DNA from: a virus | Reading direction: 5' to 3' (one strand) | IMG/VR virus record: IMGVR_UViG_3300001450_000008 | Location: 1 to 26,750 of that record | Length of the DNA stretch: 26,750 nt | Shown here: positions 2,998-25,595 of the stretch, piece after piece | Layout: each line of letters begins with the position of its first letter | How positions within the stretch are numbered: position 1 is the stretch's first letter | Made by a program: the position numbers and the translations under genes | Notes under the pieces: model-generated | The model's input: only the letters and a program-made list of their open reading frames with translations | Told to the model about the DNA's origin: nothing | The model's database searches: none

Positions 2998-5900
2998 ATG
3001 CGTACGGAAATTGCAATTATCTCAGCACTAGCTTTAGTCTTAACAATGCCAGTTGCCTTTGCACAAGTAGTAGAAACACAAGGACAAAACTATGACCTCG
3101 TTGAGGATTACTTTATCGGTGAAGCAATTTGGAACTCGCACCCCGAAAGAATAATGGACAATGGCTGGAAGAATTATGCACTGACAAACACTGGTGAGAA
3201 AGTTATCTTCAATACCAATTCTGTTGGTTCATTTGTCTTTGATAAGAACAGTTGTAGTTATTCAATCTATGAAAACGGTTACAACGGTCAGCAAGTTATA
3301 CCAAGTGTCAGTGCAGTTGCAAGTTATCTTGACAATGGTCAATGGTCTAACCTACCAGTAAATGATGAAGCCTGTACTGTCAAAGTAACTGAGTATGAAA
3401 ACGGTGTCTTTCTTACTTCAACTAAAGTAATCACAGAAGATATTACACAAGATGTTTTTATTTCATACACTGGAACCACTCAGAATTTTTATTCCAATTC
3501 AACTAACGCAAACTTTAACCTAGTTCAGTTTTCCAACGGAACAAATCAGGGGTATCTCAACGGTGAAACTGTAACAGTAAACTCAGTTGAAGTAGAAAAG
3601 TTCGTACAAGAACTTGACTTGAATATCCATAAAGGATTCAAAGAAACTTTCAAGGTTTGGAATGACGGTGATCAGCCATTAGGGATAAGTCAAACAATTC
3701 ATTCAGGGGACTCAATAACCATTGGTGAAACTGTAATTGATATTGCACAACTAAACGGACAAAGTTTTGACAGGCAATATATCATAGACAACGAAGCAGA
3801 AATCCTAGCCATTACTGATAGCGTGAACTATGACTTTGATACTGGTATTGAAAGTCTAACCAACGTGAACATAATCTTTGAAGATAATACATACAAAGTC
3901 AACATGGATTATGCCGATGGTGGGTTTGTAGGTTATCTCGAAATTGATCCTACGTTTACAGCCACAGCAACTACACAACAAAGAATAATCACAAGTACAA
4001 CAGGTAATTATGATACCAATGATTGTACAATGGACGGAAGTGAAGTTCCATCTTACAGTTCAAATGCTGAGTCAAAATATAACTACATGAGCCATGAGGG
4101 TAATGGTAACGGTGTATGTGCCATGCCAATGTGGGAATATGATATATCAAGTATTCCAAATGATGTTGTAATTAATGATGTAGATGTAGTATATGATATT
4201 GTAGCAACAAGTGAGATAAGTAATCTTAACGGACTGGACTTTATCACTTCTGATGAACAAATAGGTGCAACAAGTGGTACAACATTAAAAACCCAATTTG
4301 AAGAAATGGTATCAAACCCTACATATTTACTAGAAACCAATTTATCAACTGGAACTGGACTTACTGCACAATTAGGAACTTCTGCTAACTCGGATATACA
4401 ATCCTCATTATCACAGGGCTGGTTTACAATCGTCACTAGAATGAACCCATTTGACAATCACCCAAACGATTCTGCTATGATACAACTTAACAATGTAGAG
4501 TTACAAGTTACCTATGCTATTGCAATAGCACCAACGGTAGCACCTACTGGTCTATCAACTGTAACTGGTATTCCATTAGAACTGGACTGGACTGGCATAC
4601 CAACTTCAGGTGACGGTGGCAGTTCAATCACAGGGTATAACGTGTATAGATCACTCAATGAGTTTGCATATCAAGAACTGCCAAACAGTTCAGGTTCAGA
4701 CAGTCAGTTAACATTTACTGACAACGAGTTTTTGATTCATGGATTTGAAACTGTATCAACACCACTCACACATACTGATCAAGGTTGGGATGGCTATCTA
4801 GATTGGAACAATCATAAAATGGCTATTTACATAACAGCCAATTCGGAATTGGTGGGAAAACAAATAACAGAAGTATCATTTTGGATGAAGAACTCAGGTT
4901 CAGGTGGTAGTGCCGATATTGTTGTTTATGATGATAGCAACACCATAGTAGCAGACATGGGAAGTGTCACTGCCAGTCAACTAACTTCGTCATATACGAA
5001 ACAGACGTTTAATTCTGATTCGGTTACATTAGGAGCTGATTATAAAATTTCTATAAATAAGATTACAGGTTCTGGAAGTAATTTCATTAAAGTTGCTGGA
5101 AGCAGTGCAGATTCTTATGACGGAACTAACACATACATGTCACAAACAGATGTCTTAAATTGGAATACTAATTCAGAAGATTTAGATTTTGAAATACTGT
5201 ATAGCACTATTGGACTTACAGACAAGTCAGCCAACAGTATAACAGTAGGTACTGTTGCTGGTGGAGTGTTACTAGCAGAACAAACACAACTAGACAATGA
5301 TGATCAATTAAATTCAAACACGATTGAGGATTGGGGAATTGTAGTCGGTGCTGGTAGTCCGATGGTAGGGGAAGATATTGTTCAAGTTGACTTTTACGGA
5401 AAAAGATACCAGCTATCAGGCTACAACCAAATGTGTGAGTTTGAAGTATTAGATTCCAGTGATTCTGCAAAGTATGAACATTCATTTCTATGTGAGGATA
5501 AATTTACTACAACTGCACAATGGGTATCTTTTGATTTAGCAACACCGACAACAATTTCGGCAGGGGATAGAATTGTAATACATTCCGAACAAGGTGGTGC
5601 AACAAATTATCTTAACCTTTGGGAAGCAACAAGCGATGTTGACTCAGGCGTTCATGTAGCTCAGGGTGATCATGGTGCATGGAATGATGATACAGGTAGA
5701 GATCCAGCATACAAAGTATATTCTGCAAATACAGTGGGTACTTCAACAACTGGTATCATTGATACAGCAATTCAAAATCCTAATTTAGCATATACTGACA
5801 GCAACCTACCTGACAACACTGACGACCTAACCATTGGTGGCTGGGTAAAACTTGATGCACCACCAGCATTAACATTTGAAGATAATTTTGATTCTGATAA

Positions 5901-8900
5901 TTGGACACATGGTGGTGCAAATAGTGTTACAAGTGGATTGTTAGACTGGGGAATAAGAACAAATGATAAATCTACTTTTGATTTAGGTACTGTATCTGAT
6001 GATAAATGGGTATTACAATTCAAGTGGACTATTGATTCCATAACAAGAACCTCAATAACTGACTTTGGTTGGTTTGGAATCTCAGATTCAACAGGTGGTA
6101 AAGGTACTTCACAAGACTTTGTAGGTTTTACTTATAATCCATATAATAGCTACCCATACGACCTACAATTACAAAACATAGATGGTACTGCACTAAGTCT
6201 AGGAACTGGAAATTCTGCTGGATCAGCATATTCAGTAGCACAAGGAACATGGTCAAATGGCGACACATATTATTATGAGTTGGTAAGAGATGGAACAACC
6301 TTATCGCTTAAAGTATTTTCAGATGAATATGTAACACAAGTTGGTTCAACAATATCAAAGACGATTGGAAGTGAGTCAGGATTAAGGTATCTAATTCAAG
6401 CTGGGGATAATACTAGATCAGATACTCAATCAGGACATATGGAGGGATCGATTGATCTGTTAAAATTTTACAACGGTGTAACTTCTTCTACTGGAATACC
6501 TGAATTTGAACCGTCAAAACTTCTCGGACTCAATGATGTGACATTCAATGTCGGAGCTACAACTGCAAGTGTAGGTTCAGTTACATCTACTGAACAAACC
6601 ACTTCTAATAGTGACGGTACTTCAAGTCTTGGTGGTAGTGGTGGTTCTAATGTAAAAGTTGGTGCTAAATTTAATACTGGACACGACATAATCGGAAAAC
6701 CTATTTCATCAATAACAATTAAAACTGCAACTTATGGTTCCCCAACTGGTACAGCATATCTTAAAATTTATGATTCATCTTTGAATCTTATTGCAACATC
6801 TACTAATGGGTTAGATGTTACAACAATGAACGGTGATCCACAAATGTCATTTATTGAACATGAGTTTGAGTTTTCCCCTACTGTTACTTTTGCTGACGGT
6901 TACATAATTTCTTATGAAGGTGCAAGTGCAAGTAATAATAACGAGGTAAACGTTCAGGCTTCAAACGTTGGAACTGACGCAAGTAATACGGAATTTGGCT
7001 GGTATCAATCCAGTTGGTCATGGCAATCAGGCAGGGATATGTGGCTCTCATATAGTTTTGCTTCACCAATCATTTCAGCCACAGGTCTTACAGATAACAC
7101 AAGTACGGCACAGCACTACGCTGTAACAAGGGACTCATCTAATCTTTGGACTCTATATCAGAATGGTGCTTCGGTAGCAACTGCAACGGACTCAACAAGT
7201 TTGGGTGCTAACAGTGGTACAGTTTCACTATCCCCTGACGGAACTATCAACGGTGCAACAACTGGACAAACTGGAAAGATAGGTAGCTCAATGTCATTTG
7301 ACCAAAGTAACGATTACATTGATTCAGGTTCTACTCAATTATTATCATCAACAATATCTGCATTGACTACAAATGTTTGGATAAAACCTGACGGTTCTGC
7401 TACAACTGGTGGTCAATATACTTTTGGTATATCCCCAAATGACGGTAATACAAATAACTTTTTCACAACAATGGTTCAAGCAGTAGGTTCAGGTAATGGA
7501 TTCTTTGTAACTGCTGGATCTAATTCAAACCAATGTTATTCTGATGGTAATGCTGGTACTAACTGGAATACTTCTGACTGGTTTATGGTTACTATGGTCT
7601 TTGACGGATCTCAAAGTGGAACTGACAGATTAAAGATGTATGTTAATGGTGTTGAAGAGGGAAGTGTAGGTGGTTCATGTCCAAGTAGTGTGAGTTATAA
7701 TTCTTATTTATCCATAGGTAGGCAGGGTACAAGTGGTCAGCCTTACTTTGGTGGACAACTTGACGAGGGTAGTATTTGGGAAACTGCATTAAGTCAAAGT
7801 CAGATTACAGCATTATACAATTCAGGTAGTGGAACTACCAACGTACCAACAACTGATCTAAAAGCACATTTTGATTTTGATGATACAGGTTCGACATTAA
7901 CCAATGAATACAATTCTGTATCTGATTACACAACAAACATCTCAGGATCACTTGACGAGTTCTTCATAAACTCAGATGCACTTACTTCAACTGAGATAGA
8001 CAACATCTATGACAGGGGTGGCAAAGGGACATTAGTTACAACCACAAGTGCAAGTACAACTGATTATGACGATTCCAGTGTTACAGGTGGCAACACCTAT
8101 TACTTTGCAGTAGCTGGGGTCAATGCTATTGGTGAGGGTGTTTTGTCGTCTTATACATCTGGACTGGCTGGAAGCCCACCATCTGAACCAACAAGTGTTG
8201 CAACTACAATAAGTTCACCTAACTCTAACCCACTTGACGTTACACTCTCATGGTCAGCACCGACAAACGTTGGAACTGGAACGCTAACGGGCTTTGAGAT
8301 TTATCGTGACGGCACATTACATAAAACAGTTGGATTAGTTACAAGTGATACTGACACAGTTCCGTCAGTTGGAACTTATGTTTATTCATTAAAATCATTA
8401 GCGACACATGGTAACTCAGGTTTCTCAGCAACTTCAAGTATTGACACGCCAACTGCACCCCCAGCACCTAACGCACCGACACTGGGTATAACCAGTCCGA
8501 ACCCAAGTCCGTTTGACGTAACTGTTTCTTGGTCTGCACAGTCTAACGGTGGCAGTGCAATAACTTCAACTGAAATATTCAGAAGTGCAACTGAAACTGG
8601 AACCTATTCTTCAGTCGGAACCGTAAGTGACTTGGACTTTACTGACACAGTTCCGAGTGCTGGAACTTGGTATTATAAAATTGCCAGTACAAACTTGTTA
8701 GGTTCCTCATCTCAGGGAACTTCAGCTAATATCGCAACACCAACTGTACCAAGCAGTGACAGTTCAACGACTTTGGCAATACCTGATCCTAATGCAAGTC
8801 CTAGAGGTATAACCGTATCACTGGTGGCACCAAGCAGTGACGGTGGAAGTACCGTAACTGGATATAACATTTACAGTTCTGATGATAACGTAACATTCAA

Positions 8901-11745
8901 TTCAGTCGCAAGTGCAGTAACAACTGACACGACAATAACAGTTCCGACTGGTGGCACTTGGTATTTCAAGTCAGAAGCAATTAACAATGTTGGCACTGCC
9001 AATCAAGGCAGTTCCGTAAGCATAGCCACACCGTCAGTACCGACTGCTTCAGGTGTGACACTTTCAATTCCTAGTCCTGATCCAAGTCCACTTGACATAG
9101 TTGCAGTATTCACAGCACCAAGTTCTGACGGTGGTTCTTCTGTAACTGGATATAACCTACTCAGTTCGCCTGATGATGTTATTTACAACTATGTCGCACA
9201 GGCAGTAACGGCTGACCAAACAATAACAGTTGACAGTACAGGCACTTGGTATTTCAAATCACAGGCACTTAACAATGTTGGCAACGGAACTTTAAGCAGT
9301 GCAGTTTCAATTACAACTGCAACCGTACCTGACGCACCAAGTATAACTTTGGCAATTAATGATCCTAACCCTAGTCCACTTCAGGTGACAACAACGTTTG
9401 TGACACCGACAAACAACGGTGGTTCTTCGGTAACTGGATTTAACTTGTATCATTCATCTGACGGCACACTTTACAGTTCAGTGATCAATGCGACAAATTC
9501 TGACTTTAACTATTCAGTAGGCAGTTCGGGCACTCACTACTTTAAGGCTGAAGCAATATCCAACGCTGGTACAAGTAACAACAGTACGGCAGTTACTATC
9601 GCAACACCTAACGCACCTGACGCTTCAAGCGTAACTTTGGCAATTAACAATCCTAACACAAATCCGTTTGATGTTACTGCAACATTCGTAGCACCAAGTT
9701 CTGACGGTGGTTCTTCTGTAACTGGATATAACTTGTTTACCTCACCTGATGATACGACATACACGCCAGTCGCAGAAGCAGTTACGGCTGACCAGTCAGT
9801 AACACTTGCAAGTGCTGGAACTTGGTATTTCAAATCACAAGCACTTAACAATGTTGGCAACGGAACTTTAAGCAGTGCAGTCACTATCGCAACACCGACT
9901 GTACCTGACGCACCAAGTATAACTTTGGCTACAAACAATCCTAACACAAATCCGTTTGACATTACTGCAACATTCGTAGCACCAGCAAACAACGGTGGGT
10001 CTGCTTTGATAGACTATAACTTACAATATTCCAGTGACGATTCTCTCTACGTTTCACTTATCAATGGCACAACTATTCCATACACCCATACAGTTTCGGG
10101 AGCTGGCACACACTACTTTAAGGCTGAGGTGACAAACAATGTCGGTACAAGTCTGTTATCCTCATCATACAGTACAGCAACACCGACTGTGCCAAGTGCA
10201 CCAACTAACGCAAACGTGGTTATATCAAGCATTGACAGTGCACCTTATGGCACGACTGTAACATGGTCAGCACCAACAAGTGACGGTGGCTCATCATTGA
10301 TCAACTATAAAATTTACAGACAGACTGGCACTGGTGCTTTCAGTTTGGTCGGAACTACAACACAGTCGGTGCTGACTCTCAGTGACACAGTTCCAAGTGC
10401 ATTGAACCAAAGTTATACTTACAAGATAACTGCATTAAATAATGTAGGCGAGTCAACTGCTTTCGTTACAACTACAATTACGACTGGTGACGTACCAAGT
10501 GCACCGACACTATCTGGAACTGCTGGAACCACTTCACTGTCTTGGAACGTACCAAACAGTGACGCAACTGTAACTGGCTACAAAGTTTATCGTGATGGCA
10601 GTTTAATGACAACCGTAACTGGAACTTCACACTCTGACTTTCAAACACTGACATTCGGTAATGCCTATGTCTATACTCTCAAAGCAGTTTCAATATTTGG
10701 TGACAGTGTTTTGTCTAACACGTTTACGACAACACCTGAAACTGAAATTACTGGAATGATTGCACAGGGCGTTACTGGAACTGGTGTAGTAATTGACTGG
10801 GACGAACCAGCATATTATCAGGGACAGGTTACAAACTATGAAGTTTATTATTCTGAGATAACTGCAAGTGTCAGCACACCTACTACCAGTGCTGGAACCA
10901 CAACCAATACTTATTCCAACTTTGCACCTCAACTGGATTACAATACAAGTTATATCTTTGGTGTAAAGGTTAATTCGCCACTAGGCAACTCTGGATTCAG
11001 CAACTATGTCACTGTCACAACAAGCATTGACAACAGTATCGTGGCATTTGATCCTACAACTGGTGGCATGGAATGGTTTGACATTGATTCAGTCAATGAC
11101 CAAACAGTCAATGTCATAGAGTTCCAAAGAGAAACACAGACAATATCAGTAAATGGAACTGCAACTGCCGTTGATACTTTGCAAGTAGCATACCCTTCAT
11201 GGTGGGACGACATGACTTGTGATGTGGATTACAAGTTTGCACAAAAGACAGACCAGTATGTAGAGGGAACTGACATGACCTCACAGGTAATGGCAAGTGA
11301 CGCAAACAAACAAGTCATAGGATTCAACTTCCAAGACGTTGACAACGAAGTAATTGAAATAGAATGTGCACCTCAGCAAAGTCAGCAAGATGATGGCGTA
11401 TCAGCAAAGTATGTTATGACACAAAATACACTTGGCACTTTGCAACAAGACGGAACATATTCAACTGGACTTCCTAACATTCCTCTAGTCACACAGGTAA
11501 CAAACTTTACGGCTGGTGAATACGGAACTGACGGTGACTTTGGTGCAATAGATATTGTCGGACTGTTTGTAATACTTGTTTCAATGGTCGGCTTTAACAG
11601 AGTGTCACCAATCGTAGGTGTATTAATATCTGCAAGTACGATATTCGCACTGTCATTCTTCGGACTGATAGCAATTCCAACTGTGATAATAGGTGTAATA
11701 GGATTAGTAATATTCTTAGCATGGGGAATTACAAGGAATAGATAA
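2998..11745 (+). CDS. Giant secreted, membrane-anchored lectin/FN3 surface protein (probable receptor-binding fibre)
   Basis: At 2915 residues this gene is about one third of the genome. A signal peptide (1-23, ending AFAQ) precedes a ~300-residue N-terminal domain. An FN3 domain seems to begin at ~511-565 (GGSSITGYNVYRS) and finish only at ~1678-1718 (TLVTTTSAST then YYFAVAGVNAIGEG), leaving ~1110 inserted residues. The insert holds three beta-sandwich, carbohydrate-binding-like modules (~578-738, ~757-911, ~1198-1357), another lectin-like module (~958-1160), and LamG-like pieces (~945, ~1375, a full LamG ~1427-1610, and a LamG end ~1652-1675). Ten tandem FN3 domains follow (~1727-2676), then a unique domain with SWWDDMTCDVDY and three membrane spans (~2851-2911) ending TRNR. 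Host attachment via glycans or S-layer is inferred. Confidence 0.85.
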   Translation: MRTEIAIISALALVLTMPVAFAQVVETQGQNYDLVEDYFIGEAIWNSHPERIMDNGWKNYALTNTGEKVIFNTNSVGSFVFDKNSCSYSIYENGYNGQQVIPSVSAVASYLDNGQWSNLPVNDEACTVKVTEYENGVFLTSTKVITEDITQDVFISYTGTTQNFYSNSTNANFNLVQFSNGTNQGYLNGETVTVNSVEVEKFVQELDLNIHKGFKETFKVWNDGDQPLGISQTIHSGDSITIGETVIDIAQLNGQSFDRQYIIDNEAEILAITDSVNYDFDTGIESLTNVNIIFEDNTYKVNMDYADGGFVGYLEIDPTFTATATTQQRIITSTTGNYDTNDCTMDGSEVPSYSSNAESKYNYMSHEGNGNGVCAMPMWEYDISSIPNDVVINDVDVVYDIVATSEISNLNGLDFITSDEQIGATSGTTLKTQFEEMVSNPTYLLETNLSTGTGLTAQLGTSANSDIQSSLSQGWFTIVTRMNPFDNHPNDSAMIQLNNVELQVTYAIAIAPTVAPTGLSTVTGIPLELDWTGIPTSGDGGSSITGYNVYRSLNEFAYQELPNSSGSDSQLTFTDNEFLIHGFETVSTPLTHTDQGWDGYLDWNNHKMAIYITANSELVGKQITEVSFWMKNSGSGGSADIVVYDDSNTIVADMGSVTASQLTSSYTKQTFNSDSVTLGADYKISINKITGSGSNFIKVAGSSADSYDGTNTYMSQTDVLNWNTNSEDLDFEILYSTIGLTDKSANSITVGTVAGGVLLAEQTQLDNDDQLNSNTIEDWGIVVGAGSPMVGEDIVQVDFYGKRYQLSGYNQMCEFEVLDSSDSAKYEHSFLCEDKFTTTAQWVSFDLATPTTISAGDRIVIHSEQGGATNYLNLWEATSDVDSGVHVAQGDHGAWNDDTGRDPAYKVYSANTVGTSTTGIIDTAIQNPNLAYTDSNLPDNTDDLTIGGWVKLDAPPALTFEDNFDSDNWTHGGANSVTSGLLDWGIRTNDKSTFDLGTVSDDKWVLQFKWTIDSITRTSITDFGWFGISDSTGGKGTSQDFVGFTYNPYNSYPYDLQLQNIDGTALSLGTGNSAGSAYSVAQGTWSNGDTYYYELVRDGTTLSLKVFSDEYVTQVGSTISKTIGSESGLRYLIQAGDNTRSDTQSGHMEGSIDLLKFYNGVTSSTGIPEFEPSKLLGLNDVTFNVGATTASVGSVTSTEQTTSNSDGTSSLGGSGGSNVKVGAKFNTGHDIIGKPISSITIKTATYGSPTGTAYLKIYDSSLNLIATSTNGLDVTTMNGDPQMSFIEHEFEFSPTVTFADGYIISYEGASASNNNEVNVQASNVGTDASNTEFGWYQSSWSWQSGRDMWLSYSFASPIISATGLTDNTSTAQHYAVTRDSSNLWTLYQNGASVATATDSTSLGANSGTVSLSPDGTINGATTGQTGKIGSSMSFDQSNDYIDSGSTQLLSSTISALTTNVWIKPDGSATTGGQYTFGISPNDGNTNNFFTTMVQAVGSGNGFFVTAGSNSNQCYSDGNAGTNWNTSDWFMVTMVFDGSQSGTDRLKMYVNGVEEGSVGGSCPSSVSYNSYLSIGRQGTSGQPYFGGQLDEGSIWETALSQSQITALYNSGSGTTNVPTTDLKAHFDFDDTGSTLTNEYNSVSDYTTNISGSLDEFFINSDALTSTEIDNIYDRGGKGTLVTTTSASTTDYDDSSVTGGNTYYFAVAGVNAIGEGVLSSYTSGLAGSPPSEPTSVATTISSPNSNPLDVTLSWSAPTNVGTGTLTGFEIYRDGTLHKTVGLVTSDTDTVPSVGTYVYSLKSLATHGNSGFSATSSIDTPTAPPAPNAPTLGITSPNPSPFDVTVSWSAQSNGGSAITSTEIFRSATETGTYSSVGTVSDLDFTDTVPSAGTWYYKIASTNLLGSSSQGTSANIATPTVPSSDSSTTLAIPDPNASPRGITVSLVAPSSDGGSTVTGYNIYSSDDNVTFNSVASAVTTDTTITVPTGGTWYFKSEAINNVGTANQGSSVSIATPSVPTASGVTLSIPSPDPSPLDIVAVFTAPSSDGGSSVTGYNLLSSPDDVIYNYVAQAVTADQTITVDSTGTWYFKSQALNNVGNGTLSSAVSITTATVPDAPSITLAINDPNPSPLQVTTTFVTPTNNGGSSVTGFNLYHSSDGTLYSSVINATNSDFNYSVGSSGTHYFKAEAISNAGTSNNSTAVTIATPNAPDASSVTLAINNPNTNPFDVTATFVAPSSDGGSSVTGYNLFTSPDDTTYTPVAEAVTADQSVTLASAGTWYFKSQALNNVGNGTLSSAVTIATPTVPDAPSITLATNNPNTNPFDITATFVAPANNGGSALIDYNLQYSSDDSLYVSLINGTTIPYTHTVSGAGTHYFKAEVTNNVGTSLLSSSYSTATPTVPSAPTNANVVISSIDSAPYGTTVTWSAPTSDGGSSLINYKIYRQTGTGAFSLVGTTTQSVLTLSDTVPSALNQSYTYKITALNNVGESTAFVTTTITTGDVPSAPTLSGTAGTTSLSWNVPNSDATVTGYKVYRDGSLMTTVTGTSHSDFQTLTFGNAYVYTLKAVSIFGDSVLSNTFTTTPETEITGMIAQGVTGTGVVIDWDEPAYYQGQVTNYEVYYSEITASVSTPTTSAGTTTNTYSNFAPQLDYNTSYIFGVKVNSPLGNSGFSNYVTVTTSIDNSIVAFDPTTGGMEWFDIDSVNDQTVNVIEFQRETQTISVNGTATAVDTLQVAYPSWWDDMTCDVDYKFAQKTDQYVEGTDMTSQVMASDANKQVIGFNFQDVDNEVIEIECAPQQSQQDDGVSAKYVMTQNTLGTLQQDGTYSTGLPNIPLVTQVTNFTAGEYGTDGDFGAIDIVGLFVILVSMVGFNRVSPIVGVLISASTIFALSFFGLIAIPTVIIGVIGLVIFLAWGITRNR
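8178..11025 (+). repeat. Tandem array of ten FN3-coding repeats
   Basis: Ten in-frame modules start near 8178, 8467, 8746, 9040, 9330, 9615, 9905, 10190, 10495 and 10745. The central ones have a period of about 288 nt (96 codons) and share the signature DGGSSVTGYN and the linker P(D/S)APS. Conservation at DNA level is strongest among repeats four to seven, which implies duplication or conversion inside the gene. Confidence 0.8.
9115..9928 (+). repeat. 576-bp spaced near-identical segments in the FN3 array
   Basis: Bases 9115-9156 and 9691-9732 are identical over 42 nt. Segments starting at 9244 and 9820 match over about 60 nt with one visible difference. Segments near 9327 and 9903 match again. 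All are offset by exactly 576 nt, two FN3 units, which points to a recent two-unit duplication or gene conversion. Confidence 0.75.
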
Positions 11746-12795: not shown

Positions 12796-15700
12796 ATGGC
12801 ACAGACGGCAAAAGAAAAAGAACTTGAAGCAAAGTTGGCTGAAGCCCAGACAGTTCAAGCAGGGGAAATTGCCAAAGTCCAGATTGAAGTTTATGAAGGT
12901 CAGACGTATGTAGCCAAAGACGCATACCAAGAAGCCAAGTCAAAAAGATCAAAGGCTAGATCAAAACTGCCTGAAGAAATTCCTGATGATCCTTATTACA
13001 AGGAAAGATTATTGGAAGCACAGTACATTAAGGCAAACATATCCAGTCCGTCAGAAAGACAGCAAGTTGATGATTATACTGATGAGATAAAGAAACAGCA
13101 AAAGGCAAAAGAAACTATTCATGTTTTAGACAGACAGATTCCAGAGTTATATTCAAGTGCAGTAGAAGAGTCAAAGTCAGTTGAGTCAAAAGTAGAAAAG
13201 GCTAGAGTCGCAGAAGAACAAAGACAGACAGATCTGATCACTGGATTTCAGACTCAGATAGTTGCAGAACAAAAAAGAGAAACCAAAAGATTAGACGACA
13301 TTCAAAAAGCCAAAGAAGCAAAGGCTTTGAAACTTGATCAAGAAGCAACGGCTAGAGAAGCAACATACAAAAATTTTATGAAAAATGTAAGTAGTGGAAC
13401 TAACAAACACCTCAGCAAACAAATTCACTATGCTCAGGTAGGTGGTGTCGGTCTTGCAAAAGGTGACATAATAATTGAAGTTGGCAATAGAGGTAAGACC
13501 AATGCGACATTCCACCAAAGCTATTATGAACGAATTGCAAAGTCATTTCAAAATCAAGGTTATACCAATATCACTTGGATAGAAGCAAGAAAGATTTCGG
13601 GTGCTGGTGCAACTTCTATGTCAGGAAAGGCAAGAGAACAAGTGATGAGAAAATATTTAGATCCGTCAGGAAAAATGGAATCTGATTATCAGGCTTCAAG
13701 GGCACAGGCAAAAAGAAATGTCGCAAGTGCTTACGGTTCTATGTCGGCACAGGAAAAGTTAACCAGCTCTGCTATGGCTTCAACCTTTGCCACTTCACCT
13801 GAAACTAAAAAAGCCGTACAACTTGAAGCACTGTCAGATATGACTGGTGGTCTGCTTGGTAAGAAAGAGTATCAGGTTACTGAAGATAAAATGACAGTGT
13901 ATGAAACTGATGAGTTATACAAAACAAGTGGTGGTACAATGGGAACTAGAAAAGATGTTACTGCACAGGTCATGCCAATCATTCAAAAACAAAGAGCAAT
14001 AGAATTGGCAAACAGACGACAACAAGAGTATGTCAAGGAACTTCGTGCTGGTAACATTGGAACTGCAAATGCTTTGTCAAGTCCACAGACGACACAAAGT
14101 TATACTGGAACCAGTACGGTCAATCTTGGAACCTTCCTGAAGGAACGTGGACTTGTTGCCAAGACTGCACCTGACTCTATGTTCAAGCCTGACTATTATG
14201 AGAAACTCACTGAAGCTAGAAAACAGACAACTGGTGATCTTAGAACTGCTTCACCTCAGTTTGTTGGAAAGTCAGACCAGCCGTACCAAATGAGTCGGGC
14301 TGACTCTAAGGAAATAAACCAAAGGAAGCTGGCACAGCAACGTATTGCAGTATTTGATCCAAAGCCTATCGACTCTTTTCTTGCAAAAGATTCGTCATAC
14401 GTTCCTTCAGTAGGAACTGTCACGTTAAAAAAGAATGAATTGTTGACAAAGAAAGAAACTGATGTTTGGGGGTTTGATCCTATCGCTAATCAAGTCAACA
14501 AAGATATGCAGACAACTTGGACTGTACCAATAAAAACCAAAAATGCAGAATATACGGCTGACTTTAAGACTAGGGAAGAAGCAGTTTTGTTTCAAAAAAG
14601 TCAGATACCAAAAGTATTTTCTGGAACTGATAATGAATGGTGGAACAAATACAACTATGCACCAGCAGTTGACTCAGGCGAGGTTATACACCCAAGTAAA
14701 ACTGAAACATGGTCTGATGATATAAGACTTGGTGCTGGATATGTTATCACACCGTCTTACAATATTCTTAAAACTGTTTACAACCTGACACAGCCTGAAG
14801 ACAAACAAGTCCCAATGTTGGCAACTGCCGAAGACAAGTTAATCGGTGGTACTATCACTGATGTTATGTCAGGTACACCGTTAAAAGGTACAGGGGTAAC
14901 TGGACTTGCTGACTATGTTGTAGAAAACCCGTTCAGAGCTGTGGCTGAAATACCAAGTGCCGTTGTCACAGGTGTCATGGGTGGCAAGGCAATAACTTAT
15001 GGAATCAAAGGTGCAAGTATTGGCGTAAGTGCAACTGCAAAACTTGGCAACAAAATAATTCAAAGTAACGCACCAACAATAGTCAAGGTTCCGACTATTG
15101 CCATGATGGGTGCTGGTCAAGCGATTCAGCGAACTGGTGCACAGGTGTCAGCAATTCCAAGCAGAATTGGAAGTTCCGTTTATACTTACGGTGATATTCC
15201 AAGAGGAACAAAATATGGTATGCCAGTATTTACAATACCACAACAGGTAGTGCGTCAGGGAATTGTAAAGCCATACGATACTGCGACAATGTTTCAGGGA
15301 AGTCGTGTCGGATTTGGTGCTAAGGCTAATTTCATTATGACACCTTCAGGCAGAATGTTTGTAAGACAGTCAACTGATATTGCTGGTGAGATAGGTGCAA
15401 AGCCAAAGTTCCTAAACAAACAAGTTGCCATGTTTGAAAATGAAAATGTTGTAGGATTTGCAACAAGAGGTAAGATGAAAACAACAAAATATGATATGCC
15501 AAAAGAAACCCCGTTCAAGTCTGATGTGTTTACACCAACTGATAAAACAAAACTAATTCCAAAAGAAGGACTGCCAAAAGAGAAAAAACCATTCCCTGAG
15601 TTATATGACAGTAAGGCAACTACAAGTGGAAAACCATTCCCTGAATTAGTCAAAGTTGAGGACATTGGTAAAACCAGTATTCCAAAACTTCAGACACCGA

Positions 15701-17445
15701 CAGTTCTTGACAGAATTAAATCAACTGCATTATACAGAACAAAAGTCAGTACAAAACAATATAAGACAAACATTGACGAGGTTACATTTTATTCAGATAC
15801 CACTGGCGATTTGGTCAAAGGTGTCAAAAGACCCAAAGCCGAATTGCAAGGCGAGGGTGTCAATTACAGGGGATTTAAAAAGCCTGAGATAACTGGAACT
15901 AGAACAAGACTTCAGGACTACAAGACTTCAACAAGTGAATCAACTGTCAAAGGTCAGCTAAAGTTTTCTGAAGTTGCTGGTGGCAAGATAAAGTTCAAGG
16001 GAAGTCCAGTAAGGCAAGTTGACACAATAGTTACTGGTGCAAAACTTACTGGCAAAAAGAACTTGAAACTAATTGATGATATGGTAGAAGAAGGACAGAT
16101 TGAAGAAGTTGGAAAGAAGACTGTAATGAAGGGAACTGATTATTTCGGGGGTGGCAAGAAGGCTGGTCAGTTAAAGCAGTCATTGGAAAGCAGAAACCCT
16201 ACAACGTATGAAACCCAAAGTGGAAAGATAAAACCAAAAGATGAAACAATACTTTACGGTGTAAGCAAGGGAAAGATTCCAGTTGACAAAAAGGCTTTCG
16301 CACAGACCATGAAAGAGTCAAATCTTCTTAGAGAGATGGCAGACAAAGCACCATTAAACAAAAAGCCTAAAGTACCAAAAGGTGTTGACGAACCACCAAC
16401 AGAAAAGTATCACGCATTTATCGGTGAGTCAAAGTCAACTGGTAAGACTTTTCAGGGAACTAGGGTTGAACTTGGTTCAGGCATTGGTACAACGGGTGTC
16501 GGCAGTAGTTTCACCAAAACAAATGTTGACTTGGGTAAAGGGGGTGGTATATCTAACATAAAAGATGTTAAAAGAATGTCTAGCAAACCTGATGTTGTTG
16601 GTGTTACAACCAATAGAATAAACGTAAAAAAGTTTGAAGAACCTAAAATACAAAAAGGTGATAAGATAGTTGACGGTAAAGAGGGGTCAACTGTTCAAAG
16701 AACAAGACTTGGTACATTCCAAGAAACCAAAATCAAACTGGGTCAAAGTGCAGTAGCAAAACCAGCACAGATACAAGTGCCAAAAGTTAAGGCTAGTGTT
16801 AAACCACCAAAGGTTTCGCCAAAGATTAAACAGATTGTCACACCTACTGTAAGTCAGAAAACTGGAACTGGTTTGGTACAACAAACTGCACAGTTGACCA
16901 AACAACAGACCAAACAAAAACCTAAGATTAAACAAGCACAAAGACTTAGAGCAGTTCAAAGTCAGTCTGCTATAACAGCCGTAGTTGCAAAGACAGTACA
17001 GGTTCAGGCAGTTGCACAGATGAAGTTGCCAACAATACAAAAAACTACAAAAAGAATAGGGGGTGGTACATTATTCTATGACACACCAAACCCACAAACA
17101 CAAAAAAGAAAAAGAAAGCGTGGTAAGAAGGCAGGGTTCATTGGCAACGTCAGACTTGACAACGTTGTTGGAATGTACAAGAGAAAAGAAATCACATACG
17201 GTCAAAAGAAAGTATCAAAGTTAGAAAGACAGGACATGAGATTGACGGCTGGAACTAAAAACAGAATTGCACTTCCGTCTTCAGGTCTGCTAAAGACCAA
17301 GAAGAAAAAGAAAAGCAAGACAGAAAGTGTGTTTGGTAGAAGTGTAACAAAAACTAAAGATGAATTTGTTGGATTTGAATCCAAACCTAAAAAGAAAACA
17401 GCCAAGCGTAAAAAATCCAAAACAAAAACAGTTAGATTAATGTAG
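12796..17445 (+). CDS. Very large coiled-coil protein with Lys-rich C-terminus (probable virion protein)
   Basis: This encodes 1549 residues without a signal peptide. Residues 1 to about 190 are rich in Lys, Glu, Ala and Gln and look like a long coiled coil. The middle is mixed. A Gly/Ala-rich hydrophobic stretch (about 715-780) could contact membrane. The C-terminal third is increasingly basic, ending in runs such as KTKKKKKSKT and KPKKKTAKRKKSKTK. A motif of the form F-x2-T-x-(V/I)-x-LG occurs at about 1219, 1239 and 1308, and KPFPEL occurs twice near 930-950. Size and layout suggest an internal scaffold or tail/tape-like protein, with the tail binding the genome. No enzymatic motif is visible. 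A TATA-like TTAATTAA 28 nt upstream supports ATG 12796. Confidence 0.7.
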   Translation: MAQTAKEKELEAKLAEAQTVQAGEIAKVQIEVYEGQTYVAKDAYQEAKSKRSKARSKLPEEIPDDPYYKERLLEAQYIKANISSPSERQQVDDYTDEIKKQQKAKETIHVLDRQIPELYSSAVEESKSVESKVEKARVAEEQRQTDLITGFQTQIVAEQKRETKRLDDIQKAKEAKALKLDQEATAREATYKNFMKNVSSGTNKHLSKQIHYAQVGGVGLAKGDIIIEVGNRGKTNATFHQSYYERIAKSFQNQGYTNITWIEARKISGAGATSMSGKAREQVMRKYLDPSGKMESDYQASRAQAKRNVASAYGSMSAQEKLTSSAMASTFATSPETKKAVQLEALSDMTGGLLGKKEYQVTEDKMTVYETDELYKTSGGTMGTRKDVTAQVMPIIQKQRAIELANRRQQEYVKELRAGNIGTANALSSPQTTQSYTGTSTVNLGTFLKERGLVAKTAPDSMFKPDYYEKLTEARKQTTGDLRTASPQFVGKSDQPYQMSRADSKEINQRKLAQQRIAVFDPKPIDSFLAKDSSYVPSVGTVTLKKNELLTKKETDVWGFDPIANQVNKDMQTTWTVPIKTKNAEYTADFKTREEAVLFQKSQIPKVFSGTDNEWWNKYNYAPAVDSGEVIHPSKTETWSDDIRLGAGYVITPSYNILKTVYNLTQPEDKQVPMLATAEDKLIGGTITDVMSGTPLKGTGVTGLADYVVENPFRAVAEIPSAVVTGVMGGKAITYGIKGASIGVSATAKLGNKIIQSNAPTIVKVPTIAMMGAGQAIQRTGAQVSAIPSRIGSSVYTYGDIPRGTKYGMPVFTIPQQVVRQGIVKPYDTATMFQGSRVGFGAKANFIMTPSGRMFVRQSTDIAGEIGAKPKFLNKQVAMFENENVVGFATRGKMKTTKYDMPKETPFKSDVFTPTDKTKLIPKEGLPKEKKPFPELYDSKATTSGKPFPELVKVEDIGKTSIPKLQTPTVLDRIKSTALYRTKVSTKQYKTNIDEVTFYSDTTGDLVKGVKRPKAELQGEGVNYRGFKKPEITGTRTRLQDYKTSTSESTVKGQLKFSEVAGGKIKFKGSPVRQVDTIVTGAKLTGKKNLKLIDDMVEEGQIEEVGKKTVMKGTDYFGGGKKAGQLKQSLESRNPTTYETQSGKIKPKDETILYGVSKGKIPVDKKAFAQTMKESNLLREMADKAPLNKKPKVPKGVDEPPTEKYHAFIGESKSTGKTFQGTRVELGSGIGTTGVGSSFTKTNVDLGKGGGISNIKDVKRMSSKPDVVGVTTNRINVKKFEEPKIQKGDKIVDGKEGSTVQRTRLGTFQETKIKLGQSAVAKPAQIQVPKVKASVKPPKVSPKIKQIVTPTVSQKTGTGLVQQTAQLTKQQTKQKPKIKQAQRLRAVQSQSAITAVVAKTVQVQAVAQMKLPTIQKTTKRIGGGTLFYDTPNPQTQKRKRKRGKKAGFIGNVRLDNVVGMYKRKEITYGQKKVSKLERQDMRLTAGTKNRIALPSSGLLKTKKKKKSKTESVFGRSVTKTKDEFVGFESKPKKKTAKRKKSKTKTVRLM

Positions 17446-19595: not shown

Positions 19596-20420
19596 ATGAA
19601 TGAACGTAATGAGAAAAAAGTTGAAAAAGTATGGGGTAGTATTGTGAGATTAGAAACTGCCAAGTACCATGTAGATAACTATGAGCCATCATACCATATA
19701 TTATCATTTGGTGGTGGTCGTCAAACAGTTGCGTTATTAATATTAATGAAAGATATTTTTAAAAATAATGATAAAGGGTATGTCATATTTGCAGATACGG
19801 GGGGTGAGCATCAAGAAACTTATGATTACATAAGTGATTATATTGTACCATATTGTAAAACCAATAATATTAATTTTGTAAGAGTTTATAATAAATATGG
19901 AAAAACATTATATGATTATTGTTGGGATAAAAAAATTGTGCCATCAATAAAATTCAGAGATTGTACTTCCAAATTCAAGATAGCACCAATTAGAAAATTC
20001 ATAAGAGAAGAATTAGGTGTTACAAGAAAACACCCATGCTATGTTCATATTGGAATATCTTATGATGAGGCAACTAGAATGAACGCTTCTAATGTTTTAT
20101 ATGCCAAATCAGTATATCCGTTTGTTGATGGGTATAGGGATATAGAGGGTAAAAAAACAGTAGAGGACTGTGCTAAAATTGTTGCAGATGAGGGCTGGGC
20201 GATAGTACCAAAATCAGGGTGTTGGTTTTGTCCTTTTGCTCAGACATTGGACTTGTTAGACCCACGTTACAAAGAAAAGACACAGGCATTGGAAGAAAAT
20301 AATAGTAGATACCCAGAAATTAAACTGAGAGGTATGGGTAAAAATACAAAATCAGTTAATGAATTGACAATAAATGATGTAGGAAAAGACTCTTGTAAGT
20401 CTGGGTACTGTATGGTATGA
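19596..20420 (+). CDS. PAPS-reductase-family / PP-loop ATP pyrophosphatase-like enzyme
   Basis: This encodes 274 residues of the adenine-nucleotide alpha-hydrolase-like (PAPS reductase, DndC-related) superfamily. A PP-loop-like SFGGGRQTVA lies at 37-46, then FADTGGEHQETYDYI (65-79), RDCTSKFKIAPIRKF (121-135), and GCWFCPF (208-214). Two more Cys lie near the C terminus (SCKSGYC). C123 with C209/C212 and the terminal Cys could bind a metal or Fe-S cluster. Phage members are often called PAPS reductases without proof; sulfur transfer to nucleic acid or nucleotide activation is as likely as sulfate reduction. The gene looks more AT-rich than its neighbours (many TTA, ATA, AAA, AAT codons), which suggests separate acquisition. 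It has its own promoter and overlaps the next gene by ATGA. Confidence 0.75.
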   Translation: MNERNEKKVEKVWGSIVRLETAKYHVDNYEPSYHILSFGGGRQTVALLILMKDIFKNNDKGYVIFADTGGEHQETYDYISDYIVPYCKTNNINFVRVYNKYGKTLYDYCWDKKIVPSIKFRDCTSKFKIAPIRKFIREELGVTRKHPCYVHIGISYDEATRMNASNVLYAKSVYPFVDGYRDIEGKKTVEDCAKIVADEGWAIVPKSGCWFCPFAQTLDLLDPRYKEKTQALEENNSRYPEIKLRGMGKNTKSVNELTINDVGKDSCKSGYCMV

Positions 20421-20984: not shown

Positions 20985-21179
20985 TTGAAAGTGGTTAAGA
21001 ACTATTCATTAAATATTGAAGTGATAAGGGCATTTGACGCTGAAGTTTCTGATCAAACAAGGTCTAGGTTAATTGAGGCACTTATAATAAAATTTTTAGT
21101 TGAATATACTAGGGGTAGTGTCCAAACAACCCCTAGTGACGATTCCAGTCTTACCACAGAAAAGGAAGCGATACTATGA
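20985..21179 (+). CDS. Ribbon-helix-helix protein, likely regulator or initiator partner
   Basis: The product has 64 residues from TTG 20985 (GTG 20991 in frame): a beta strand (VVKNYSL), helix one (IEVIRAFDAEV), turn (SDQTRS), helix two (RLIEALIIKFLVEY), then a Ser/Thr-rich tail. This is the CopG-type arrangement. Its TGA overlaps the ATG of the SF3 helicase, like copy-control RHH proteins paired with replication genes on plasmids. Its probable operator lies just upstream. It could repress helicase expression or bind the origin repeats. Confidence 0.7.
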   Translation: MKVVKNYSLNIEVIRAFDAEVSDQTRSRLIEALIIKFLVEYTRGSVQTTPSDDSSLTTEKEAIL

Positions 21180-22849
21180 CTTTAATTCCTAATGATAAAT
21201 TGATTACTAATTGTGAGTTTTGTCTTAAAGACGATTTTGAAAACTGTGTTAACGGTGGTTTATGTCCAAACTATCCAAGTAAACCTCAGTTATCTACTAG
21301 AACCGTACTATGTGATCACTGTCAAAAAGACGGTGGGTATATGAACGGGTACCATGAGATATGTGAGCAGAATTATATCAACAATGGCATGAAGACATTT
21401 TGTCAGTGTACCAATATGGGACATGGTAGGAATGTTACAACTTCCAACGAGTCGTTATCATTTGCAGACCAAATTAAGTTCGAGGCTGACTCATTAGATA
21501 CTGTAAAACATGAGCATAAGGACAGAATTGACATTGTTACTGGTAGGCTAATTACAAAATATAATTTTATTACTGCAAGGGAAACCGATTCAATTTATTA
21601 TTTCAATGGCAAGATTTATGATTCCAAGAATTGTGAGTCAGTAATCAAACAGGAAACTGAGGCACAGATTGTAGAGTGTACCAAGTCAGACAAATCCGAA
21701 GTCATTGACAAGATAAAGTCAAGAACCTATGAAAGTCTTGAACATTTTGACAGTGACATTGACATTCTAGTCGTACAAAACGGGGTGCTGAATTTACAGA
21801 CAATGGAATTGTCGTCACATACCCCCCTTCTTTTGACAAAGGTTTTGTTACCTTGTAATTACGCCAAGCCTGAGTTTGAAATTAGATCAGATGATATTTT
21901 TGAGTCGTTAAAGTCAAACTTACAAGACACGTTGTTTTGGAAGTTCTTAGAAACTTCTTTTACAAAAGAGTATGTCATTGATGAAAAATCCATGCTTACC
22001 GTATTGGAAATGATGGCTTCGACATTCATTAGAAAGAATATTGACGAAAGAAGTTTTATCATGCTTGGCAACGGTGCCAATGGAAAGTCAGTATGTCTTG
22101 ACTATCTTTCCACACTGTTAGGAAATGACAACGTGTCACATATTCCGTTACAGGTTTTGGCTGAAGACAAATTTGCTTCGGCAAGACTTGACGGAAAACA
22201 AGCAAACATATTTTCTGACTTGGAAAGAAACGAGCTGTTCCATACAGGTATGATTAAGGATCTGTCTTCAGGCGAACCAGTACACGCACAGTTAAAAAAC
22301 AAAAACGGTTTTGATCTTTACCCTTTTGCTTCATTGGTATTTTCATGCAACAAGTTTCCCAGAGTCTTTGACCAGTCGCAGGGATTTTTCCGTAGATGGA
22401 TTCTTATTTTTTGGGAAAGAAACTTTGAGAAAGACCCACAAAGAAATGACAACTTGAAAAAGGAACTGTTGGAAAAGTCTGATGAAATGGACTTGGTATT
22501 CTCATGTCTGATTCATGTTGCCAAGATGTTATATGACTCTAACAGATTTTTAAATCCTAAAGACTGGAAGACGGTTCAAAAAATGTGGAATGAAAATTCC
22601 GATCCCTTGAACTGGTTTGTCGAGAACCATATTATTGATTCAAACGGTCACCGTTCAAAACGTGACACATACCAGTTTTATAAAAAAACAATGTTTGAAA
22701 AGGGCGAGGTTCCTTTGGGCATGGGTAGATTCAGCAAGGCTTTTTCGGAATATTATGAGGACTCAAAGTCAGACCATGAAAGAATTTGGCTGAACATTGA
22801 GTTCAGGGAACCACAGCAAACAATATTAGAGGACAGTGATAAAACATGA
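21176..22849 (+). CDS. SF3 (D5-like) replicative helicase with N-terminal zinc-finger-like Cys clusters
   Basis: This encodes 557 residues. The N-terminal ~90 hold Cys clusters (CEFC, CVNGGLC, CDHC, CEQNY, CQC), likely two zinc sites. A D5_N-like region follows. The helicase core has Walker A GNGANGKS (298-305), Walker B NIFSDLE (344-350), motif C FSCNKFP (389-395, Asn392) and an arginine-finger region FFRRW (about 405-409). SF3 helicases unwind origins of viruses and plasmids. No archaeo-eukaryotic primase or primpol signature is obvious in the N-terminal part, and no polymerase gene is present, so host primase and polymerase are probably recruited. The gene is coupled to the RHH gene by ATGA, next to the candidate origin. 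Confidence 0.9.
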   Translation: MTLIPNDKLITNCEFCLKDDFENCVNGGLCPNYPSKPQLSTRTVLCDHCQKDGGYMNGYHEICEQNYINNGMKTFCQCTNMGHGRNVTTSNESLSFADQIKFEADSLDTVKHEHKDRIDIVTGRLITKYNFITARETDSIYYFNGKIYDSKNCESVIKQETEAQIVECTKSDKSEVIDKIKSRTYESLEHFDSDIDILVVQNGVLNLQTMELSSHTPLLLTKVLLPCNYAKPEFEIRSDDIFESLKSNLQDTLFWKFLETSFTKEYVIDEKSMLTVLEMMASTFIRKNIDERSFIMLGNGANGKSVCLDYLSTLLGNDNVSHIPLQVLAEDKFASARLDGKQANIFSDLERNELFHTGMIKDLSSGEPVHAQLKNKNGFDLYPFASLVFSCNKFPRVFDQSQGFFRRWILIFWERNFEKDPQRNDNLKKELLEKSDEMDLVFSCLIHVAKMLYDSNRFLNPKDWKTVQKMWNENSDPLNWFVENHIIDSNGHRSKRDTYQFYKKTMFEKGEVPLGMGRFSKAFSEYYEDSKSDHERIWLNIEFREPQQTILEDSDKT

Positions 22850-24898: not shown

Positions 24899-25017
24899 TG
24901 CCACATGGGTCTGATTACGGTTATGGCGTAACAAATTACACAGTAAAATCTGGAAAGCGTTGCCCTGCTTGTGGCAAGACAAAATGTAAGCATGGCAGAA
25001 AAGCTAGAGTTTTCTAA
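24898..25017 (+). CDS. Mini zinc-finger protein upstream of the integrase
   Basis: The product has 39 residues. CPACGKTKCKHG forms a compact CxxC...C-x-H site, followed by a basic end (RKARVF). It is joined by TAATG overlaps to the membrane-protein gene before it and the integrase gene after it. It could act as an excisionase-like or regulatory partner; this is only suggested by position. Confidence 0.6.
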   Translation: MPHGSDYGYGVTNYTVKSGKRCPACGKTKCKHGRKARVF

Positions 25018-25595
25018 TGCAAGATAAAGTAAATTATATTTCCCCCGAAACTTTTGAGAGAATCGTTGACTATATACCGATACTAGGTATTCGCAAGTGG
25101 AAAGACGAGGACATTAAAATGCTCTATAAGACAATGTATTACTGTGCATTACGGGCTAACGAGGCAATTCATTTAAAGAAAGAAAGTTTCAACTTGGAAG
25201 ACAGGGAAATTTATCTAGGCAAAACCAAAACAAAGAAACAAGATACTGCACATATTCCTCATATTTTTGTAGATGAACTAAAGACTTGGCTTATCTTCAA
25301 GGAAAAAGGTAGGCTGTTTGAAGGATTGACATATCCAAGACTGTATGTATGGTGTAAAAGAATAGGATCTGACTTGGATATTTCAGCATGGCAAAGTCTT
25401 GAAGCCGAAGTTGGTGAAAAGGTTGTGACACATTTGTTCAGAAAAAGTATTGGCAAGGAAATGTTAAACGGTACTCATGGTGAAAAAGCCAGTTCGATAC
25501 CAGTCATTTCAAAACACCTCAGACATTCAAAACCTTCCATGACAGTTGACCATTATCTAAAAGCCAGTCTTGAATCAGTCAAAGAGGCGTGGTAG
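25017..25595 (+). CDS. Tyrosine recombinase (integrase), catalytic-domain-only
   Basis: This encodes 192 residues carrying the expected catalytic set: Arg46 in CALRANEAIHL, Lys72/Lys74 in the beta-hairpin, His139-x-x-Arg142 in THLFRKS, His170 in LRHSKPS, and the nucleophile Tyr180 in VDHYL. There is little room for the usual N-terminal core-binding domain, so it is short like several archaeal virus and plasmid integrases. It would integrate or excise the circular genome, or resolve dimers. No tRNA-derived attachment site was recognised nearby. The start is fixed by a TAATG overlap with the zinc-finger gene. Confidence 0.85.
   Translation: MQDKVNYISPETFERIVDYIPILGIRKWKDEDIKMLYKTMYYCALRANEAIHLKKESFNLEDREIYLGKTKTKKQDTAHIPHIFVDELKTWLIFKEKGRLFEGLTYPRLYVWCKRIGSDLDISAWQSLEAEVGEKVVTHLFRKSIGKEMLNGTHGEKASSIPVISKHLRHSKPSMTVDHYLKASLESVKEAW

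Follow-up and report, generated by a model that had tools for sequence, protein, structure and literature searches.

The window, i.e. the whole stretch of 26,750 nucleotides analysed here, is part of a 35,661-base IMG/VR virus record (IMGVR_UViG_3300001450_000008). At positions 2998–11745 it carries an open reading frame, open throughout, that codes for a putative adhesin of 2915 residues (P0001), all features of which are encoded on the plus strand. This gene is preceded by small genes whose products contain two hydrophobic segments and resemble the capsid proteins of the spindle virus NYMAG-47. The product of the ORF at 2375–2656 (93 residues, two hydrophobic segments) showed 61–96% identity in six relatives and, compared with NYMAG-47 by description only, is a candidate for a spindle-virus-type major capsid protein. 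The proposed family Nipumfusiviridae (NYMAG-47 and its relatives) has a two-helix putative capsid protein of ~90 residues and a putative Nitrosopumilaceae host, and its criterion is a set of six conserved genes including those for an ATPase and a zinc-binding protein (PMC10866085). By description, the virus studied here is similar in genome size, in its IMG/VR origin and in its candidate capsid protein of ~90 residues with two hydrophobic segments (PMC10866085); because of this similarity, its hosts are probably marine ammonia-oxidizing archaea. Three proteins of more than 500 residues without a match to known tail proteins were reported for NYMAG-47, but an adhesin of the present type is absent from that description (PMC10866085). 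Searches of the phage database gave no match for the ATPase or the small capsid-like protein, and the queries tried found no Nipumfusiviridae reference genome in the phage collection. Downstream of the adhesin region, an ORF of 1549 residues without a family match (12796–17445) was 84–89% identical in DNA sequence over long stretches in several relatives. Further genes coded for a PAPS-reductase-like protein (19596–20420), a D5_N/DUF5906 primase-helicase-like protein (21176–22849) and an integrase-like protein (25017–25595), suggesting that the virus is able to integrate.

Relatives of the adhesin were collected by scanning viral contigs with several conserved pieces, and by one scan of genome contigs. 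They comprised P0002 (L002), P0003 (L003), P0004 (L006), P0005 (L009), P0006 (L008), P0007 (L007), P0008 (L011), P0009 (L012), L019 and L026. Seven related tips were compared with that of the window; P0003 and P0008 have one tip in common, and the tip of P0002 and P0005 is a different one of the same general kind. No relative was found in a genome scan with the C-terminal anchor, and a phage database search with the adhesin returned only FN3-type matches, to phage tail proteins. L026 (NZVE01000056.1), which carries an adhesin of the same kind, comes from a bin labelled Rhodobacteraceae; the genome also includes the capsid-like gene (90% identical), so that L026 is in all likelihood a virus contig placed in the wrong bin, and the bin is probably contaminated.

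P0001 begins with a signal-peptide-like segment that is hydrophobic from residue 1 (residues 1–23, 2998–3066), followed by a conserved N-terminal region (residues 24–340, 3067–4017; 63–85% identity among relatives) without a family match in Pfam or NCBIfam. The next domain (residues 341–511, 4018–4530) is highly variable though not nested (25–31% identity between well-conserved flanks). At the other end, a membrane-proximal region and a hydrophobic C-terminal anchor (residues 2679–2915, 11032–11742; hydrophobic windows from residue 2845) are 75–84% identical in relatives. A family FN3 profile was built from 50 FN3 domains, all intact and taken from stalks of this protein family, and run against whole proteins. 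In P0001 it identified ten complete FN3 domains (residues 1736–2678, 8203–11031; 48–101 bits each) and just two half-domains.

These two halves, F1 (about residues 512–565, 4531–4692; 60–69% identity in relatives) and F2 (residues 1678–1731, 8029–8190), correspond to the proposal in the initial annotation that an FN3 half at 511–565 is completed at 1678–1718. The profile match of F1 (536–572) covered profile positions 20–55 and that of F2 (1669–1731) positions 32–95, i.e. complementary parts of the domain. When residues 512–558 were joined in turn to 374 candidate segments from the tip, the top score (56 bits) was obtained with the segment starting exactly at 1678, compared with 31.5 bits for the best unrelated segment and a median of 20.7 bits, which bears out the proposed partner. 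With the Pfam fn3 profile (cut-off 25), the joined halves of the window scored 24.1 bits over profile positions 3–80 of 84 and those of the homologue P0004 33.9 bits; by itself, F1 of the window scored 13.8 bits and F2 gave no match. No uninterrupted F1–F2 was found among the relatives; the insertion of LamG into FN3 is indicated by the profiles.

The region between F1 and F2 contains short conserved pieces of an outer LamG domain separated by foreign domains. The pieces O0 (residues 739–752, 5212–5253; motif GLTDKSANSITVG, common to five relatives), O1 (residues 914–953, 5737–5856; 52–65% identity to relatives), O2 (residues 1173–1194, 6514–6579; KLLGLNDVTFNVG, 43–77%), O3 (residues 1357–1408, 7066–7221; 61–80%) and O4 (residues 1642–1677, 7921–8028; conserved, aligning with LamG profiles) were recognized in this way. 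Judging from its sequence, the conserved segment at residues 566–582 (4693–4743), which ends in NEFLIHG and in which EFLIHGF resembles LKAHFDF, is probably strand 1 of the same domain, in which case the modules at 583–738 and 753–912 probably also lie inside the outer LamG. The initial annotation had this domain running from about 945 to 1652–1675; the end was confirmed (at ~1677), and the start has to be placed earlier in the sequence, at ~914 for O1, at 739 for O0 and probably at 566. After removal of the inserts, the joined outer pieces of the window matched Laminin_G_3 with 33.2 bits (profile positions 55–150 of 151; cut-off 27.6), and those of P0004 and P0009 with 35.4 and 37.4 bits (positions 7–151), so that three of the four joined homologous scaffolds passed the cut-off; no Laminin_G_3 match was obtained for the joined pieces of P0008, nor for the intact stretch of O1, insert B and O2. 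In a profile-profile alignment, a profile of five joined scaffolds aligned with a profile of the LamG inserts over 148 collinear columns (P 4e-9), compared with 50 columns when the scaffold pieces were taken in reverse order.

Five foreign domains interrupt the outer LamG in P0001: insert A1 (residues 583–738, 4744–5211), insert A2 (residues 753–912, 5254–5733), insert B (residues 954–1172, 5857–6513), insert C (residues 1195–1356, 6580–7065) and insert D (residues 1409–1641, 7222–7920). A hub of ~181 residues thus carries inserts of 156–233 residues each, about 930 in total. Modules were grouped into families by BLASTP matches with E below 1e-3; on this basis A1 belongs to family M1 (it is a homologue of the module in slot D of P0007, E 4e-7), B to family M2 (matching the A1 insert of P0008 with E 1e-16) and D to LamG, with A2 and C falling into no module family. 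Among known families, only LamG and, in one relative, a glycine-rich family matched any of the modules.

The same slots were found to be empty or differently filled in the relatives. P0008 has M2 in A1, M3 in C and an unclassified module in D, with A2 and B empty; P0004 has LamG in A2 and B and M2 in C, with A1 and D empty; P0009 has M2 in A1 and C and LamG in B, with A2 and D empty. In P0006, M2 occupies B and D and the module in C belongs to no family, P0007 has M1 in D, and L019 has M2 in A1 and an empty A2. L026 has LamG in A1, M3 in A2, modules in B and C that are M2-like by eye and unclustered, and an unclassified one in D. Each of the slots A1, A2, B and D is accordingly empty in some relative, which answers the call in the initial annotation for versions lacking individual inserts; slot C was never empty among the tips compared, and in P0004, P0008, P0009 and L026 it holds modules unrelated to insert C. 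Modules of one family also recur at different places (28 module pairs at different sites with BLASTP E below 1e-6): M2 occurs in slots A1, B, C and D, LamG in A1, A2, B and D and in an FN3 loop of P0002 and P0005, and M3 in A2, in C and likewise in an FN3 loop. In the second FN3, an M3 module interrupts P0005 exactly where P0002 has no break, and in the FN3 of L026 a Gly_rich_2 domain (62 bits) lies between strands B and C. A scan of 200 host-phylum genomes for M2, run without a positive control, gave no match.

Structure prediction was informative for one insert. An AlphaFold2 model of window residues 519–1718, computed with eight aligned tips, reached a pLDDT of 35 and was unusable. In P0005, residues 594–907 comprise an FN3 whose strand B is followed by an inserted LamG; AlphaFold2 modelled this LamG as one ConA-like jelly-roll domain across the insert, and the model aligned with PAPP-A with a Z of 15 and an rmsd of 2.8 Å over 175 residues. 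The FN3 halves in this model were of low confidence, and the structure search covered the LamG only. This prediction supports the view that an insert is a complete domain, and from the sequence data we infer that the split host domains would each pack in one fold.

According to the simplest alternative, P0001 would consist of independent domains in a linear string, and what look like FN3 and LamG halves would be small complete domains or chance resemblances. The weak scores of single halves, which alone remain below the Pfam cut-offs, are in line with such a string, as is the failure of the AlphaFold2 model (pLDDT 35) to show packing; however, the halves map to complementary profile parts and score synergistically when joined, the pieces are contiguous in relatives with empty slots, and the order of the scaffold pieces is constant in every relative containing them. 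A simple end-to-end order in homologues, named beforehand as the observation that would speak against nesting, was looked for and not found. The relatives with empty slots largely refute the linear string, which we consider very improbable. At the sequence level the nested architecture is real, and a LamG inside an FN3 with whole modules inserted into the LamG loops, as initially annotated, is strongly supported by the collinear relatives and their empty or differently filled slots.

Conservation differed sharply between scaffold and slots. Scaffold pieces were mostly 45–80% identical between relatives, compared with about 25% identity, or no relationship, for the contents of the same slot unless both belonged to one family (47% in the best case). 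At the DNA level, long flanks of the window matched relatives with up to 92% identity, and within the tip the scaffold pieces alone matched. Between L019 and L011, F1 was 94.2% identical over 223 bp and O1 95.0% over 121 bp, and the insert of ~740 bp between them showed no DNA match and 32% protein identity; with flanks of 94–95% around an unrelated insert, this looks like a recent cassette replacement. Such differences could in principle be metagenome assembly artefacts arising from chimaeric contigs. The 61.6-kb contig of L003, L011 and L019 gives some reason for caution, as it has three tip genes and a single match to the 93-residue putative capsid gene and may thus join more than one genome; other samples nevertheless show the pattern too, in independent contigs (L006, L008, L012, L026 and the window) whose reading frames are open all the way through, and we regard artefact as the least probable of the explanations considered, with almost no weight. 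On the same 61.6-kb contig, L003:2–2273 and L011:6453–8724 share about 2,272 identical bases across the tip, after which the two adhesin genes diverge sharply near the O4/F2 boundary, reflecting either a recent whole-tip transfer or an assembly effect.

Insert D had been described as a second complete LamG at 1427–1610. Its completeness holds (Laminin_G_3, 69.6 bits over profile positions 2–150 of 151), but its limits do not: the span is about 1409–1641, wider than noted because the first strand sits at the C-terminal end. In this domain the first strand (DLKAHFDFDD) is the last in sequence, so that the strand order is permuted relative to LamGs of the host. The same order was seen in four of the five other LamG inserts first aligned (the exception being slot A2 of P0004) and also in slot A1 of L026. 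LamG domains were present in 24 of 200 genomes of the host phylum, with the usual strand order where strand 1 was seen. The permutation was considered as a novelty and set aside, as the LamG-insert span can be aligned with pentraxin-type chains and PAPP-A without reordering the sequence; the strand order of the LamG inserts probably has known parallels.

Several known systems resemble parts of this arrangement. Bacterial RTX adhesins have split Ig-like domains, and the domains that emerge from these bind ligands and are projected off the stalk axis (PMC12077191, PMC10865825). FrhA, MpIBP and AhLap share with P0001 a beta-sandwich stalk, in which whole ligand-binding domains break up the Ig-like domains; one inserted domain of AhLap carries an insert of its own, comparable to the nesting described here (PMC12077191, PMC10865825). 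As in such split domains, sequence profiles indicate that the host domain of P0001 is completed after the insert. RTX adhesins are, however, bacterial, type I secreted and usually have one insert per split domain (PMC12077191, PMC10865825), whereas in P0001 the LamG hub, itself lodged in an FN3, has five inserts and varies in content between related viruses. In place of the type I signal and nonapeptide repeats of RTX adhesins, P0001 has a signal-like peptide and a hydrophobic anchor at its C-terminus, and a Pfam scan of its whole sequence found fn3 and no RTX family. Evolved Dit proteins of siphophages carry carbohydrate-binding modules in a galectin-domain loop (PMC9692632). They are likewise viral adhesion proteins with a module in a beta-sandwich loop and with versions with and without the insert, but Dit forms a ring in the tail and has a single insertion site (PMC9692632), in contrast to the five slots, long FN3 stalk and membrane anchor of P0001. 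Multi-level nested insertions are also known, for example a six-level case in cyanobacterial RNA polymerase (PMC13114784), and share with P0001 recursive insertion and one host domain with several inserts; in that survey inserts were consistently smaller than their hosts (PMC13114784), whereas the hub of ~181 residues accommodates an insert of 233. Within the literature covered, which was incomplete and lay mostly outside subscription papers, we came across no account of this architecture for archaeal viruses, and none of a multi-slot hub whose modules are exchanged, relocated or absent from one related virus to the next. Such a hub, with its exchanged contents and in a virus that is putatively archaeal, appears to be a new variation on the known arrangements.

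Taken together, we propose, with a probability of roughly 0.7, that P0001 is an exported, membrane-anchored adhesin with a stalk of ten FN3 domains and an eleventh FN3 split by a LamG hub with exchangeable modules. The ten-FN3 stalk would carry the split domain, and the LamG would act as a hub whose five loops serve as slots for whole modules, here one LamG and four others; related viruses would keep the hub and have modules replaced, moved or omitted. With the hub kept and the modules exchanged, recombination could change the exposed surface and leave stalk and anchor unaltered. The likeliest role is that of a virion surface adhesin, whose modules, by analogy with the RTX adhesins, may project from the tip and meet the host surface; the branched shape of the tip, its location on the virion and the binding of receptors or glycans are all presumed on these grounds. 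Alternatively, the nesting may be correct and the inserts may serve as structural spacers, or as shields or decoys against host defences. Most modules have no annotated relative, their binding is itself an inference, and the slots vary too widely in content for any one ligand to be conserved, all of which would suit spacers or decoys. On the other hand, the one recognized module, LamG, belongs to the ConA-like lectin superfamily, its relatives of solved structure include carbohydrate-binding domains, and in bacterial adhesins the domains emerging from split Ig-like domains do bind ligands (PMC12077191, PMC10865825), so that we consider spacers or decoys unlikely and retain the adhesin reading. 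Its most far-reaching form is more tentative, and we hold it to be somewhat less probable than even: viruses of ammonia-oxidizing archaea would share a LamG hub with five standard slots (six with the FN3 loop) and a common pool of binding modules, exchanged among slots and genomes by recombination at the short conserved scaffold pieces and thereby retuning host attachment.

Ammonia-oxidizing archaea are central to the marine nitrogen cycle, and to our knowledge almost nothing is known about how viruses attach to them. The architecture shows that small beta-sandwich domains can accommodate several inserts of their own size or larger, and the natural pairs of filled and empty slots provide material for domain-insertion studies. 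Should the conserved hub and its interchangeable loop modules be confirmed, they would be a concrete candidate for the determination of host range and would explain how attachment can diversify while the rest of the particle stays constant.
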